A stretch of 64,000 bases of DNA from Vitis vinifera. Its lineage: Eukaryota; Streptophyta; Magnoliopsida; Vitales; Vitaceae. Below, in pieces: positions 11,401-44,200 of this stretch. A model generated the notes under the pieces. It had not been told where the DNA came from, made no database searches, and saw only the letters and a list, made by a program, of their open reading frames with translations. The stretch lies in NCBI RefSeq assembly GCF_030704535.1, contig NC_081821.1, forward strand, positions 1,379,001-1,443,000, given 5' to 3'. Both the position numbers and the translations under genes were made by a program. Within the stretch, counting starts at the first letter, position 1. Every line of letters begins with the position of its first letter.

Positions 11401-13723
11401 TTAAGATGGAGTAAGCTTTAGAATAGGCAAAATTTTATTAAGCCTAGAAGACTGATAATGCTTAAGCCTTAAGCCTTAAGCCCGTAAAGCACATTGGGTG
11501 GGCGTACTTATCTATCACTCAAAGAAAGCAAAAGATTTGACTGAAGAGAAATATCAGCCCACTCTCAATGATCAACTTCTTGAAGGCTCAAGCAATTAAG
11601 TCTGATACAAGTAAATGCTCCAACTTGAAGAAGACTGAATACTGGCCGGCAATCTTTTATTGAGAGATCCACTAATGGCCTTTACTGCCCATTCACTTCT
11701 CCATTTTTAATGTCTTCCTTCCGTATAAGCTGTAGAATCTGCCCCCCTGCCTTCAACCTGAAAGTTCTATTCATTATGATTCACTCTTTCCTGTTCTTAA
11801 TTTATAAGCCCCTGCAAACAATTCAAAGCATTTCATAAACACAACTCAGAAACATTAGTAAATATTCAAGAAAACACTATATGCAGTGTTTTAATTATTA
11901 AATTATTTATTTTTTAAATATTTTATTTCTATTAAACATTAAAAAGTAAAGAAAAATTAATACAATGTTTTTTCTATTCAACAAAACAAAAAAACAAAAA
12001 AAAAACAAACAACTTAAAGTCTAAAACCAAATTGCTTTAAGCAAAAAACTAAAAAAAACAAACGACCCTCTTAGTTTTTCACTGAATGCTAAAAATAAAT
12101 TTTTGAAACAATAAAAATACAATCTCGACACAACCCTCACTTCATTAATATTTAATATTTAACAAAAATAAAATAATAATAAAATAAATAAGATAATACT
12201 TAGAGGCTGTTTGTTTTTTTTTAAAAGTAATTTGTTTTCAGAATTTAGGTAGTTTGTTTTTCTACTTTTTCATAATTTATTATAAACTTTTTATTGAATA
12301 GAAAAAATTAAAATATTTAACTTTTTCTAAATAAAAAAAATAGCATATTGGTTTTTCTTTACTACTTAATAGAAATAAAATACTATAAAAACAAATAATA
12401 TAATATTTAACATTATTAAACATTAAGATTCTATTTAGAATTAAGTAAAAAAATTAACATCAACTTAATATCATTTAGAATTAAATTAATTTCTATTAAG
12501 ATTTAAGAAAAAAAAAAATACAAACACCCATATTAAGTATTTGCAAACGTAAGTGTTATGATTACTGAAGGAAGTAATCATATATGACAAGCTGTCTATA
12601 ATTGACCAGTGATTGACATCATTGGAGTATCATAAGACTATTGCACTGACTGGGCATAAAGGTTTGTAAATATTCCCCACAAGAATGAATTAGTCATAGT
12701 ATTGATGGAAACCTCAAGATTTGATGTTGGATTGGTTCATATGTATCAATCTGAATCTAGCAATGATGGGATTTATATTCTGTTTACCGAATCGACCCCA
12801 CCGACACATTCAAAATATCAAACTATTTTCTAAGATAGGCATGCCTCAAATATATTAAAAATAAATATATCTTATAAATTAAGAAAATATTATTTGTTTT
12901 AATAATATATTTTATTAAAAAGTAATTCTTTTAAATATTTTGTGTGTGTTAAAAATGAAAAAATAAAATAAAATTATTTTTAAAATTAATTATATATATA
13001 ATCATTCATGCATGACATGATAAGAAATATTTGAAGTTTTTTTTAAAAAAAAAATCTCAAATTTACGCCATTTGCGACTTCTTTGATTCACCCCTCATCC
13101 GTTTCCTCTGTTTTTTAAAATTAAAATTTTGAGATTGATTCTTTAAAATTTGCTTTCAATAATAAAATTTTGTTTTATAATTCAAAAATAGAGAACAGTT
13201 TTCTCGATGTATTCTCCACAAAGATGCCACACACTTATGTAAAAATATAGAAGTTTATGAAATGTTATTTATATTTTTAATTATTATTCATAATATTATA
13301 TAAAAAAATAATTAAAAACACCTAAGATTTATTATAAAAAATAATTTATTTTTAAAATAAATTCTCAAAAAACTGTTTTCTATATGAAGTTGAGCAAGCT
13401 TGTATTTGCCCATCCTAAGAACAGAAAACCGGCCTAAGTCGCTATAGCTTTCAAACTTGTTTAACTCATTAATAAATAATAAATAGAGAACCAAAACACA
13501 CTGGGTAAATTTTCATTTTGGGCTTGGTACTCCGGTATATGTATGGGCCTTGGATGGACCCACGATTTATAAGTCACGTCCAGGCTAATTGGGCCCCAAG
13601 ACCAGGCCCAATCCAGGTCCATCGTTCACTTACACAAATCGGATTTAGAGTATCCAAAAATGGAATTAAAACATAGATGTCCAGGCAGCCAAACAGAAGT
13701 AAAACATATAGACGACGACAAAA
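8420..13723. other. AT-rich intergenic spacer with short repeats
   Basis: About 5.3 kb upstream of the RGP gene. The first 200 bp is GC-richer RGP 5' UTR and promoter. After that it is mostly A/T tracts with several AAAACATTT/TTTAAAAAA-rich units resembling short inverted-repeat elements (best case 9427-9780; a weaker relative near 10420-10712). A small tandem AAAAGGGGCATAA repeat lies near 10029-10063. The 11340-11820 stretch is less AT-rich but I could not identify it. No gene was recognised. Confidence 0.6.
9427..9780. mobile_element. MITE-like element with imperfect terminal inverted repeats
   Basis: It starts GGGTTTGTTTGGTAATGTTT and ends AATTACTATCAAACATACCC, whose reverse complement is GGGTATGTTTGATAGTAATT. 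The inverted ends therefore match over about 20 bp with several mismatches. The interior is almost pure A/T with no coding potential. Related TTGTTTGGTA-type and AAAACA-rich segments occur near 10420-10712, 12200-12540 and 63085-63300. No clear target-site duplication was seen. Confidence 0.4.
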
Positions 13724-15855
13724 GGACTTTTGGGCCAAAATGGGCTTCCGCTGAAACTTAGTGAGCTTCTTCCAAAACTAATGTTCAAAATAGCCCCATG
13801 AATCCACATAAGCATAAAACCCAGTTTTTTTATACTATTTTTATTTACTTTACCAACTTCCCTTCTCGTGTTGTTCTTTGTGTGATTTTTTCCTTCAAAA
13901 CCCTAACCCCACCGGTAGGTCACTGAGAGAGACATTGTTGGAGCTGCAAAGTATTAAGGTTGAGGTTAGTCCTAATATTCCTTTTAGCTTATTTTATGTA
14001 AAGTTTTTGGCACTTTCCCTTTTTTTTATTCATCTCAAAATCTCAGTTTTCAGAAAAATATATTTTTTCCATTGCTTTTGGTTTTCTTTTTTGTTTATGT
14101 CCTTCATGGCTATTTTAACATAAATGGTTTCTTATCATCCAAAGATTGAAGTCCTTTAAGATATAGACATTTGTTGAAGTTTATGGGGAAATTGAAAATT
14201 TATGAGGAAAATAAAATTTTATGGGGAAAGAAAAAATTTCTAGGGAAAAAGGACAGAACCATGATTTGTATATTGGATGATTAATGTCTTGAGGTTAACC
14301 TAGTTTCAGCTTCTGTGGAAAATAAAATTAATGTATATTGGTATTGGTTTTCTAGGTTGGTTTCAGGTTATATTATGATGATTAAAAATTAATATATATT
14401 GGTTTTTTGGGCTGGTTTCAACGGTTTTCTGGGTTGGTTTCAGGTTATATTGTGATGATTAAAAATTAATATATATTGGTTTTTTTGGTTGGTTTCAACT
14501 TATATTGTGATGATTAATGTCTTGAGGGTAACCCAGTTTCAGCTTGTGGGAAAAATAAAATTAATGTAAATTGGTTTTCTGTGCTGGTTACAACTTTGGT
14601 ATTGTTAGCTTAAAGCTACAGTTGAAAAGAATGGGTTTGTTTGAGAGTTTAGGTCTTTCACGTCATCTACATCAAAGACTTATTATTACTTATTAAAAAA
14701 TAAAAATAACTATATAATTGTAATATCTTTTACTATCCTAAACTCTCTTTTGGATTTTTCAAGGGTTTAATGTTAAGTTTTTAACTTTTGTGAATTTGAT
14801 AATATATAAAGGGACTTTGCTGATTGCTATGGGATGTGATGGTATCCAAATTTTAATTATTATATTCATTTATTCATTTAAATATCCAAATATATAAATA
14901 TTTTATAAATTTAGTAATGATATTATCAAATTCACAAAAGTTAAAAACTTAACATTAAACCCTTGAAAAATCCAAAAGAGAGTTTAGGATAGTAAAAGAT
15001 ATTACAATTATATAGTTATTTTTATTTTTTAATAAGTAATAATAAGTCTTTGATGTAGATGACGTGAAAGACCTAAACTCTCAAACAAACCCATTCTTTT
15101 CAACTGTAGCTTTAAGCTAACAATACCAAAGTTGTAACCAGCCCAAAAAACCAATATATATTAATTTTATTTTTCCCACAAGCTGAAACTAGGTTACCCT
15201 CAAGACATTAATCATCACAATATAAGTTGAAACCAACCTAAAAAACCAATATATATTAATTTTTAATCATCACAATATAACCTGAAACCAACCCAGAAAA
15301 CCAATACAAATATACATTAATTTTATTTTCCTTAAAAGCTCAAACTAGGTTAACCTCAAGACATTAATCATCAAATATACAAATCACGGATCTGTCCTTT
15401 TTCCTCATAAATTTTCAGGGCTTCAATCTTTGGATGATAAGAAACCATTTATGCTAAAATAGCCGTGAAGGATGTAAACAAAAGAGAAAACCAAAAGCAA
15501 TGGAAAAAAAAATATTTTTCTGAAAACCGAGATTCTGATATGGGAAAAAAATGGGAAAGTGCCAAAAATTTACATAAAATAATCTAAAAAGAAGATTAAG
15601 ACTAACCTTAACCTTGATACTTTGTAGCTCCAACAATGTCTCTCTCAATGGCCCAATGGCCCACTGGTGGGGCTAGGGTTTTGAAAGAAAAAATCACACA
15701 AGAGAAAGGGAAGTTGGTAAAGTAAAGAAAAATAGTATAAAAAACTGGGTTTTATATTTATGTGGATTCATGTGGGCTATTTTGAATATTAATTTTGGAA
15801 GAAGCCCACTTTTAATATTAAGTTTCAGCATAAGCCCATTTTGGCCCAAAAGTCC
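13724..15855. repeat. 2.1-kb foldback: long inverted repeat beside SEC61-gamma
   Basis: The left arm 13724-14805 and the right arm 14920-15855 are reverse complements around a 114-bp AT-rich loop. The inner 223 bp (14583-14805 against 14920-15142) looks identical base for base. Outward the arms differ by substitutions and indels, including extra sequence near 14155-14260 in the left arm. Both outer ends carry GGACTTTTGGGCC then AAAATGGGCTT, followed inward by ACTTTACCAACTTCCCTT, AAAACCCTA and GAGAGAGACATTGTTGGAGC. These resemble plant site II (TGGGCC/T) and telo-box promoter elements followed by 5' exon sequence, pointing inward on each arm. No transposase and no convincing target-site duplication were seen. 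A transcript across it would form a hairpin of almost 1 kb. Confidence 0.88.
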
Positions 15856-15955
15856 AAAATAGGAGCGTAAGTCTTTGAAACGCCGTCGTTTCGTCGTCGT
15901 CCTCCTCCTCCTCTACCCGATCTAGGGTTTCTGTGTGGTTGTCAAGCGGAGAGAA
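15841..15955 (+). promoter_or_regulatory. SEC61-gamma proximal promoter and 5' UTR abutting the foldback arm
   Basis: Only about 100 bp separate the right arm from the SEC61-gamma ATG. Within the arm edge is TTGGCCCAAAAG, with AAGCCCAT just before it at 15831-15838; both are site II-like motifs on the minus strand. The interval then has a GTCGTCGTCC-type CT-rich stretch and TCTAGGGTTTC, a telo-box-like motif (AAACCCTAGA on the other strand). Such motif pairs are common before translation and secretion genes. Promoter function is inferred. Confidence 0.45.
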
Positions 15956-16323
15956 ATGGATGCCATCGACTCGGCCGTTGATCCTCTGAGAGAGTTCTCC
16001 AAGGACAGTGTTCGTCTTGTCAAGCGTTGCCACAAGCCCGATCGCAAAGGTGCGTTTTGTTTTGTTTTTGTTTTTTTTTTTTTTGGGAAAATTTTTCCAG
16101 TTGAAACAAACAGAATTTGGATTTTATACATGGTGTTTCGGTTACGGATTATGTCGTTTTTGTGTGTGTATGTGTGTTGTACTGAGATCAGTGGCTTTGG
16201 TTTGTAGAGTATACGAAGGTGGCGTTCCGTACAGCTACTGGATTCGTCGTGATGGGATTCGTTGGGTTTTTCGTGAAGTTGATCTTCATTCCGATCAACA
16301 ACATCATCGTTGGGTCTGGTTAG
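15956..16323 (+). CDS. SEC61G: Protein transport protein SEC61 subunit gamma
   Basis: Small single-pass tail-anchored subunit of the ER Sec61 translocon, the channel for co-translational protein import. Exon 1 is 15956-16049 and exon 2 is 16208-16323, joined in phase (AAA G|AG), giving 69 residues, the usual family length. The N-terminal cytosolic helix ([19 protein letters not shown], then [20 protein letters not shown]) and the membrane segment ([19 protein letters not shown]) with the NNIIVGSG end match SecE/Sec61-gamma. The stop codon is directly followed by GTAATG, a plausible donor for a 3'-UTR intron; an acceptor at about 17399 before GCCTTGTGGAG would fit. That intron contains a short run of ATTCCAATTCC-type repeats near 16400. 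The promoter is squeezed against the foldback. Confidence 0.96.
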
Positions 16324-17965
16324 GTAATGCTTCATATTTGATTTACGCTTTTGGTTGCGTTTGGTTGGATTCAATTGTAGCATTGGAATTGGATAACCCT
16401 ATTCCAATTCCCATTCCAATTCCAAAGCTTGGTTGCTTTTTTGATATAATGTATGGACTTAAATTCCATAGAACTTAGAATGTAGGGGGGGTTCCATATT
16501 GAACGTAAGTTTCTGTTTTATTTTTTGTATTTTGTAGTATAGGAATTGGAAAAATTGGAAGATTAAGAACATAAAAGAAGGCATATAATAAGAAAGCAGC
16601 TGCATATATGACACATAATATGGTCTAAAAGTACATCAGACGACATAGGAGGGAGATTATTAAATCCAGAATGCAGGTTCATTTAGGTTCTCACTTTACC
16701 CTGTGGATGAGTTTTTTGATTGTTGTGATTGTCTAGACTGTTTAATGTTGAGATTTTTGGATTGTTAAGCTGTAGCATTGAAGAATCTATGTAAAATCTG
16801 AAATGAAGCAGTTGCATCCAGGCCATTCCTTGGTGAATAGCATCCAAAATTGAGAAAATCTAAGCAATTTCCCATAACTCTGAAGAAATTCAGAATTTTT
16901 TTATCAAAAAGGGTCGTAAATTGTTGCATTGCAAGGAAAGTTTTAATTGTATTTTCATGTAGACGATAATTTTGGTAGAAGTTCTTTTTTGAGAGGATCT
17001 TTATATAGCAAAAATTTTAAATTCCAATGTCACTTCTTTGAAGCTCCTCTTCCATTTTAAAGGGCTTTAGTTGGGACCAAACTTATTGTGAAACTCTTTA
17101 ACCTGGTTTTTAGAAATTTTAAAAGGTGCACCAAATGGGACCTTAATGTTGCATTACCTAGATGGTTGTAATTGACATCAACTAAGCTGTGTTGTGGCAC
17201 TGGTTTTTTTGACAAAAATTTTGGCACAATAGGTTTTACCTTTTTTACCATTGATCATCACCTCGTCAAAGAATGATGTGAATTTGACCGGACAGGCTTT
17301 TTAGAGTTTTTTGTGTGACTGGTTATGCAACATAGATCAACCACACCCTTACTCTTTGTGTAAAGCAGGGATTGACTCTATTTCTACATGTAATTGCAGG
17401 CCTTGTGGAGATCTGAGTCGAGTACAAGAGAATAGAGGCTATCCGGTTGAGCAGTGCTTTGTTACAAACAATGTTTAGGTTCTTTTTTGATGTGCACAAC
17501 TTAACTGAGTAAACTATAAAAACTAGAAGTTTTGGATTTCTTTCAAGCTCTCATGATGGGTACCATTTGTTCTTATTGGCCTTGCCTTTTCTGATTTTAT
17601 TTTGATGGATTTGTTAGCTAATTTCTAAATCTTTGGACAACCTCCTTGAGTCTTGAAGAGCATCTCTATCCTCTAGTTAAACAGTTTGCAGTGTGTTACT
17701 CTCTTCTGCTCCATGGGTAGGATTTCAGATTTGGTTGCATTTAAATAGCTTTAATCCGTATATTTTCTGGACAAACTGTGTCTTCATGCCTGTTACTTTG
17801 TACACTGCTGGGTTGAGACCCAAAAATGTTGTCAGTTAGGTCCAATTGTAGGAGCTGAAGCCATGATTAGCAGACTCTCTTTCTCTAGTGATTTTGTATG
17901 CTTTAAATTAGGGAGGTAGGAACATTAGTTCTTGAAATTGGTATGTTTCAAACTTTGAAATCAGT

Positions 17966-41299: not shown

Positions 41300-44200
41300 T
41301 TATGTAATACTCATTAATATATAGTTTTTTTAATTTTTTTTTATACACAAATTTTTGGATTTGAAATTTTGATTGGTACAATGATGTATAGATGTCCCAT
41401 TTTCAATTAAAAAAAAAATTGAAAGATGTGGTAGCATAAGGTGATGATGAGATTATGTTACCAAGAAGGAAATAAAATGTAAAAAGAAAACGATAAACAG
41501 GGCAATGAGGAGGAGAGGGGGGAGACAGGGGAGACCCACAAGCACAGTGGGAAGAGGCCAAAGAGTAAGTTGTTGGTATCTATTTGTCAATAAGATGCTG
41601 CCATAAAAATCATGGGGGGAGGGGGGAAAGGTTGCCTTTAAGCATGTGAGAGGTTGGGAGAGGGAGGATTTGGGTGAATGAGAGTGGGTGTGCGTCCTAA
41701 ATCTACCAGCCAGCTTTAATCTTATGCTGCTGCTCCTCCTCCTCCTCCCTCATTCATAGGGGGGGTGATGGGGGTCGCTTTTGGACAATGATTTATTTAT
41801 CATGGCCTCCAACTAAGCCTTCCCCTCCCTCTCTTCTCTTTTGGGTCCCTACGTGTGATCCCAAAAGCACATTCCACCTATGGAGATTTGAGTCAAGGAT
41901 GGGGACTTGTGTGTTTTTTGATTCATTTGTATTGCTCCTTTGGGAATATGGGTTATGGGGATTGATTTGGAAATGGTTCTCCTCTTTGGAGACCCTCCTT
42001 GGAAACAAAATTTCTAATTGAGGACATGTTTGTTAAACTTTTGAAATAAATTAGGTTTTTTTTTCTATAATTTGTGAAGAAAAGATAGTACTTTTTACGA
42101 TAAATTTCATGTTTTTTCAATCACTTTTTACAAAGCATTTTTAGTAATGATTGAAACACGGAGAAATGCTTAGTAAATCATTATGTTATATGCAAATATT
42201 TAGCACTTTCATGGACGATAAATTATTCCGCATAATAACAATACTTAAAAACAATATGAAGTTTAATATGTTCTAGTAAAAAATGATTATATTTATGTTG
42301 TAATTGTATCGGTCCATATAATCTGTTTAATAAATGGGTCATGTTTGGATTGAACTCCTCAATCCCCTTGGCTTGTTTACATATTCATGTTAAATTTACC
42401 CATTTATTTAATCGTACAAAAAATGATTCATTTATGATTTTACATATACAAATTTATTAATTTTATATATTTTAAAATTATGCAAATTTAAAATATTTTT
42501 CTAAATATAAATATCATATGCTTAAATAAATTAAATAACTAACTTTTTAAAAAAAAAAATTATTAAATATTTAAAATATTTTATACTTAAAACATATTTA
42601 ACAAGTGTAAAATTAAACTTTAAATTTATATTCATATTATAAACATATTATAATTAAACTTTGTATAATTAAATTAATTTAAATTTTGAAAACTTAAAAG
42701 TTAAAAATTAAGCTAACTAACAAATATTTTAAAATGATATATTTATAAATTACATTTTTAAATGGATTAAATGAGTTAAAATTATGTTAACAATTTAATG
42801 GTCAATTTAACTTATTTATTAAAGGGAAGTGAGTTGTAAAAAATGATTGATTATGTTAGAAATCCAATTATATTCACTCTCCTTGAGTTTTTAATCGAAT
42901 GAGGATTTCACTATGACTAAAACTTGAAGGCTAAAGTCTTTAGCTTTCTTATCTTGAATTACTAGGTTTTAATGAACCTTCACAATTGCTTTGAGTGTAC
43001 AATTAACTTAAAGTTTTTTTCCCTCCAAACGAATAAGTATGGAATAAATTCAATCCTTCCAATCATAAAATAAATTTGGCTCACAATACAAGAAAAATTT
43101 AGATAGATTTGAAAGGTGTGCTAGATGAAGCTGCAATTTGAAAACTGAAGTATGTAAAAAAAGAGACTTGGATGTGAGAAAATAAAAAAAACTTCAATTG
43201 AATGCAATTGTTCTCTTGTACACAAATATAGTATGACTTTTCGATTTATAGAAAACAAACTCGGATACCTAGAAACATAAAGGGTACTCTCGATCAATTG
43301 AGTTTCAGTTTGACAAGTTAACTAACTATTGGGGCATTTAATATTTTGCGAGTGGCCATTGTGATTTTTAAGGTTTTGAACGTGAGAAAATAAAGAATTT
43401 TATTGAATGTAATTATTTTCTTTTACATAAATGTAGTAGGACTTTTCAATTTATAAAAAATAAATTCAAACACCAAAAAACATAAAGAATATCCTCGATT
43501 GGTTAAGCTCCAATTTGATAGGTAAACTAATTATTGGGGCATGTAATATTTTACAAGTGACCATTGGGGTTTTTAAAGCTTAACCAACACTCAACTATGT
43601 GTCAATCGAGTATACACATGCTACTATTGGAAGAGAGATAAATTTTTTGTGCATCATCAATTAGTTAAGCTAGTTCTTTAATTAGTTCAATTGGTTAAGC
43701 TCCCCCTCGCCAATTATCCTTAAAACTACAAAAGAACTTTCAATTTGAGGTTTAAACCTTCCAATAATATGTGTACCTCTCCTTAAAACTTTTTTAAGTA
43801 AAATTTGAAAAAAAAAATATATAGGTTAAGGTTTTGAATTGAAACACAAATTTATCCAAAACTATGATAGAAACAACATATTTAGGCTAAAATAATGATG
43901 AAATTTGTTTTTAAAGCGCATGGGAAAAGATTTAGTCCTAAGTGTATCAATAAATACCATTTTATACTTTTTCTTAGAAAAACTTGAAGACTTCACAAGA
44001 TCCAAATTTTCATATCATTGATTTTCTTTAATGGTTGCTGAAATTCTCCTAAATTTTTTTTAAACCTTAAAACTTTACTTGATTCAAATTATTAATTTAC
44101 TTAATCATGTTTGTAATAATCAAAATTTAATTAAGAGAACTTGGGTTAACACAAACCATTTTGTGTTATTCATATAATAAAACGTGTCATACTTCTGTCA

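Follow-up and report, generated by a model that had tools for sequence, protein, structure and literature searches.

A foldback of two opposed MULE 5′ ends beside a grapevine SEC61-gamma gene, with a possible role in transposon silencing

A kilobase-scale inverted repeat lies just upstream of a SEC61-gamma gene in Vitis vinifera. What is this foldback made of, could it serve as a source of silencing RNA and, if so, against which sequences? The window analysed was a 64,000 bp stretch of DNA (C17:1379001-1443000) and the genome searched comprised 495.6 Mb in 21 contigs. The foldback structure itself is firm. A left arm (13724-14805, 1082 bp) and a right arm (14920-15855, 936 bp) face each other across a loop of 114 bp (14806-14919). 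Self-alignment reproduced to the base the coordinates given by an initial annotation, together with its arm lengths of about 1.08 and 0.94 kb and its loop of 114 bp. The right end had been placed about 100 bp from the SEC61-gamma start codon, and exactly 100 bp separate 15855 from the ATG. Aligned with one another, the arms were identical in 868 of 916 columns (94.8%) and differed by 48 mismatches, 33 of which were transitions, and by 12 indel events. The outer parts alone (13724-14155 against 15417-15855) matched in BLAST with an E value of 5.8e-143. Elsewhere in the window, inverted self-matches reaching 120 columns or more were confined to lengths of 122-123 columns and 73-76% identity.

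The capacity of a transcript of this DNA to form a long double-stranded hairpin, claimed by the same annotation, was confirmed as very strong by the predicted fold. For the 2132-nt strand the minimum free energy was -1348.3 kcal/mol, compared with -448.3 +/- 11.6 in 20 dinucleotide shuffles. The predicted fold held 884 arm-to-arm base pairs, and its longest unbroken helix measured 223 bp, running from 14583 in the left arm and pairing with 14920-15142. The long, near-perfect self-complementary stem of a hairpin siRNA locus is present. Plant endogenous inverted-repeat siRNA loci have kilobase arms and a short loop, and are substrates of DCL enzymes if they are transcribed. Judged by its arms and loop, the foldback resembles such loci. 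An Rfam search of the whole window at gathering thresholds returned one tRNA and no match at the foldback.

The left arm had at least 76 matches in the genome (40 of 89 candidates scored). Many of these began at query base 1 or 2, so position 13724 is a transposon terminus to within a base, and this terminus is common to a dispersed family. From it the left arm reads inward on the plus strand, containing the terminus sequence GACTTTTGGGCC from 13725, TGGGCC/TGGGCT and AAACCCTA motifs, and a leader. Alignment to the left arm and to the family identified the right arm, on the minus strand, as a second 5′ end in the opposite orientation. The retrieved family copies carried the arm-like end in a single orientation only, and several were mutually collinear over 3 kb and more. 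In all four loci where both an arm-like end and a transposase were inspected (L012, L025, L026 and L030), the transposase lay downstream of the end and in the same orientation. Pfam detected a MULE domain in L026, and MuDR DBD, MULE and SWIM domains spread across L029, L030 and L033, as in a mudrA-like transposase. The transposase frames of L012 and L025 had no Pfam match; the former was assigned through 91% DNA identity to L029, the latter through the likeness of its reading. Since a transposase follows the arm-like end in the same orientation and carries domains of the MuDR type, we identify both arms, on sequence relationships, as the mudrA-proximal 5′ end of a family of MuDR-type Mutator-like elements (MULEs). 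The initial annotation was correct about the inverted repeat, but it had missed that the arms are transposon ends and that the loop contains a transposase fragment, both of which emerged from the family and loop matches. Two further arrangements were seen among the relatives. Seven MULE 5′ ends follow one another head to tail at a spacing of about 1.1-1.3 kb in L009 (1457-9573, C6:9295956-9304072), and a gene with a plant mobile domain (PMD; Pfam) lies downstream of the mudrA-like transposase in L033 (1519-3221, minus strand) and L034 (1663-2250, minus strand). PMD proteins are treated in PMC8616336 and a barley MULE in PMC9168764.

The family at first gave the impression of an element without terminal inverted repeats, since the search with the 5′-end pattern found no partner ends. 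That classification was rejected. A 3′ terminus was located on C13, and its last 20 bp differ from the inverted 5′ end at 2 positions, from which it follows that the family does possess terminal inverted repeats; over about 80 bp the two family ends show a weak similarity of 73-75%.

The loop proved to be composite. Its first part (14806-14844, plus strand, sense with the left arm) derives from the mudrA-like transposase gene of the family, a scrap of 39 bp that is identical in at least nine other places in the genome (40 of 79 candidates scored). It lies within the transposase frame of L026, L029 and L033, and the frame is broken there in L030. The transposase homology of the scrap overlaps the left arm by 2 bp. 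By our reading of the alignment, 2 bp of filler (14845-14846) follow at the second junction, and then 73 bp (14847-14919, minus strand) over which the right MULE copy extends further inward than the left. The 2-bp overlap at the left junction and the 2-bp filler at the right one resemble the products of end joining. The segment 14847-15063, read on the minus strand, had at least 13 further matches in the genome, each 214 bp or longer and 92-99% identical (40 of 79 candidates scored). This AT-rich segment of 217 bp is better conserved among the copies than its surroundings. In nine copies, A/T sites departed from the majority at 1.3%, compared with 0.9-5.4% elsewhere, and C/G sites at 4.1%, compared with 8.0-14.2% upstream and 4.6-6.9% downstream. 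Low C/G content would account for much, though only part, of this conservation, which at first suggested a function; the C/G sites are slow too.

The SEC61-gamma gene is the neighbour of the foldback and lies outside it. It is intact, encodes 69 aa in two exons on the plus strand (15956-16049 and 16208-16323) and matched the Pfam SecE/Sec61-gamma family with an E value of 3.1e-13. When 15856-16330 was searched against the genome, the region returned itself, two exon matches on C14 (79% and 82%) and one 45-bp match on C17. The C14 matches mark a second, diverged SEC61-gamma copy (L037, C14:25511616) with exons 79-82% identical. No match to the foldback was found in the 1.5 kb upstream of this copy, where, of the motifs sought, only a single TGGGCC/T site (at about -975) was present. 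The paralog was considered as an empty-site control and rejected, as its upstream DNA fails to align usefully. These searches limit the suggestion that silencing signals could affect an essential gene. Small RNAs from the arms would find no match in SEC61-gamma, which leaves spreading or displacement of its promoter as the only ways of reaching it, and the argument from essentiality is weakened by a second copy with no foldback upstream. Four TGGGCC/TGGGCT/GGCCCA motifs (at 13519, 13544, 13590 and 13605) occupy the single-copy DNA at 13519-13610, which had one genome match. The next gene found leftwards is an RGP gene on the minus strand that begins near 8.5 kb, and the motif cluster may therefore be what was once the SEC61-gamma promoter, now moved 2.13 kb further from the gene. 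Elsewhere in the window, 43168-43576 is a tandem duplication with a unit of about 205 bp and 78% identity.

A silencing role of the foldback is plausible from its sequence, with the MULE family itself as the likely target. Among the arm 24-mers, 596 of 1972 were found exactly in the other family loci compared, as were 731 of the 1978 21-mers. By locus, the number of 24-mers in common with the arms varied widely, from 210 in L013, 155 in L021 and 140 in L023 to 10 in L028, 6 in L016 and 1 in L024. Three 2-kb control stretches had no 24-mer in common with the family loci, although this control is weak, since the compared loci had been retrieved for arm likeness and the control stretches were single-copy. 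Because arm k-mers recur exactly in dispersed MULE copies, any silencing could act on the family in trans. Each arm would bring an inward-facing mudrA end that is promoter-like, as we take the TGGGCC/TGGGCT and AAACCCTA motifs to be. Transcription might start in either arm end or in the cluster at 13519-13610, and each of these would read across both arms. The read-through transcript would form a hairpin of about 1 kb and then be diced, and its products would guide methylation onto family members elsewhere in the genome, at their 5′ ends and leaders; SEC61-gamma would be reached only by spreading or by the displacement of its upstream promoter. We suggest, at roughly even odds, that the locus derives from a MuDR-type element and is non-autonomous and similar to Mu killer, with opposed 5′ ends around the 39-bp scrap, which arose by inverted duplication and whose hairpin acts in trans.

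Silencing is known to originate from transposon loci with inverted repeats, maize Mu killer among them, and to this extent the initial annotation was right to treat inverted repeats as a source of siRNA. The idea of a read-through hairpin at Mu killer was itself challenged later, in favour of short antisense transcripts (PMC3440606). The same paper describes two partial mudrA copies in inverted orientation, with both TIRs derived from the mudrA-adjacent end. The foldback likewise has both outer ends from the mudrA-adjacent end, and the two loci have in common an internal deletion and a position between host genes. They differ in what is duplicated. The arms of the foldback consist of terminus, promoter-like and leader DNA, and its mudrA coding sequence amounts to the single 39-bp scrap in the loop, with no inverted duplication, whereas the halves of Mu killer run 1.298 kb into mudrA. 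Silencing in trans has been reported for Mu killer and is a prediction for the foldback. The foldback is thus a Mu killer-like MULE variant; the variant is new and its ingredients are ordinary. The Mutavine families of grapevine (Benjak et al. 2008, PMC2528002) would be the same set of MULEs, with 9-nt target duplications where these were found and 40% of families without TIRs, and the accessible part of that paper describes no 5′-5′ foldback. Among open-access titles and abstracts on Mu killer and grapevine, on foldback MULEs and on Vitis hairpin siRNA, none reports this locus.

The most serious alternative is that the locus is an inert relic: the MULE pair was rearranged, its ability to form a hairpin has no effect, and it is silent like many old copies. 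We regard this as a reasonable though somewhat less probable account. The divergence between the arms bears on it in two ways. Outside 14423 the arms carry 42 mismatches in 533 columns and 12 indel events, an indication of age. Inside it, the inner left arm (14423-14805, plus strand) is identical to its partner in the right arm (14920-15302, minus strand) at 377 of 383 positions, with 6 mismatches and no indels (Fisher p 8.5e-6 compared with outside). The inner 223 bp form a perfect helix, and this and the many exact 24-mers common to other copies tell against a relic. The arms also had no special footprint of decay, as might be expected of an inert locus. No excess of C-to-T decay (CHH) was found in them, their values (0.091 and 0.081) falling within the range of ten other copies (0.033-0.109). 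Changes at A/T sites numbered 20 in each arm, compared with 1-10 in the same ten copies. As an indirect proxy for small-RNA-directed methylation, C-to-T decay lends no support to a silencing role. Foldback structure by itself also implies no role, since at least ten foldback pairs of 3′ ends occur in the same family (40 scored places). Against inertness, a housekeeping gene as neighbour probably makes some transcription likely.

Other explanations concern the origin of the foldback. Two MULEs may have inserted independently at a preferred target, the 5′ region of a gene, in tail-to-tail orientation, the intervening DNA being deleted except for the transposase scrap. This is possible but rather doubtful, and it is compatible with either functional reading, active or inert. 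Genome ends were counted with a 26-base 5′-end pattern allowing up to 3 mismatches, for which a reversed-pattern control gave no hits. The pattern occurred at 42 places (24 forward, 18 reverse), and the two ends of this locus were the only ones facing each other within 100 kb. Under random placement 0.002 facing pairs within 2.2 kb are expected among the 42 ends, a figure that favours one inverted duplication over two insertions and that insertion preferences would raise. The flanks carry no common 9-bp target-site duplication of the kind typical of MuDR-type MULEs: none was found at the foldback, where the flanks agree at 5 of 9 positions at the terminus and at best at 7 of 9 after one terminus is shifted by 3 bp. 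This absence and the junctions resembling end joining are as two insertions would leave them. A tree of 27 outer 5′ ends also fits them, as it grouped both arms within a single 12-row subfamily (100/100) and did not support them as sisters (79/0). In the outer bins the arms were 88-94% alike, much as each was to other copies. One 150-bp bin of the right arm was 93-95% identical to the L009, L011, L012, L013, L017 and L019 copies and 88% identical to the left arm. The inner arms point the other way. In the two inner bins (242 columns) they were 99% and 96% alike, compared with 87-92% to the three other copies that align there, apart from one value of 95% over 55 columns. In the innermost 144 columns the arms were identical, in a stretch that is 91-99% alike in nearly all copies holding it. 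We infer that a single insertion underwent inverted duplication, internal deletion and end joining, rather than two chance insertions having met. Gene conversion near the loop is the simplest reading of the gradient along the arms, and would have later homogenised their loop-proximal third.

An ordinary foldback MULE could also have transposed here as a unit, like the 3′-3′ foldbacks of the same family. A 264-bp query of the MULE 3′ end identified 40 main places (40 of 239 candidates scored, so that the counts are lower bounds). Twenty of the 40 places pair up convergently, giving at least ten foldbacks with widths from about 1.0 to 4.6 kb. Two more 3′ ends face each other at C17:11114506 and C17:11127002, forming an eleventh pair 12.8 kb wide. 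Six of the ten foldbacks were inspected (L042-L047, on C15, C4, C16, C19, C9 and C13, respectively). Target duplications matched at 9 of 9 positions in L042, L044, L046 and L047 and at 8 of 9 in L043, which shows that foldbacks of this type can move; no right terminus was identified in L045. In L043 and L046 the arms were about 1.0-1.4 kb long, 93-97% identical and partly made of tandem units, and they enclosed a transposase fragment. Foldbacks are therefore frequent in this MULE family. Like them, the foldback at 13724-15855 consists of two copies of one end in opposite orientation; it is an exception by the end it uses and by its missing duplication, and it stands alone where they form at least ten pairs. 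Transposition as a unit is accordingly unlikely: the flanks match no better than stated above, and the genome-wide search for 5′ ends found no second 5′-5′ pair. An assembly artefact, by which a chimeric foldback read would have been built into the contig, is hardly credible, as no point in its favour was found and it is made unlikely by the 48 substitutions and 12 indel events between the arms, by their unequal lengths and by foldback ends that coincide with a terminus repeated elsewhere in the genome.

The foldback thus bears on how MULE families are kept silent. Mu killer, a single, newly arisen factor in maize, is the known example of a rearranged copy silencing the transposon it came from. 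A structure like it in grapevine, in a family that also has many 3′-3′ foldbacks, raises the question of whether rearrangements of this kind form regularly and help to keep MULE families silent. With only 100 bp between a kilobase hairpin and the start codon of a secretion gene, the locus would also show cleanly whether such a gene can escape silencing by a neighbour of this kind. A bolder possibility, to which we give little credence at present, is that a woody perennial here has a natural counterpart of Mu killer under the control of a displaced housekeeping promoter. Since its arms consist of terminus and leader and not transposase coding DNA, it would work at the level of chromatin and so vary the Mu killer principle. 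If this were true, hairpin RNA directed at the promoters and leaders of an entire MULE family would be produced in the cells expressing SEC61-gamma.
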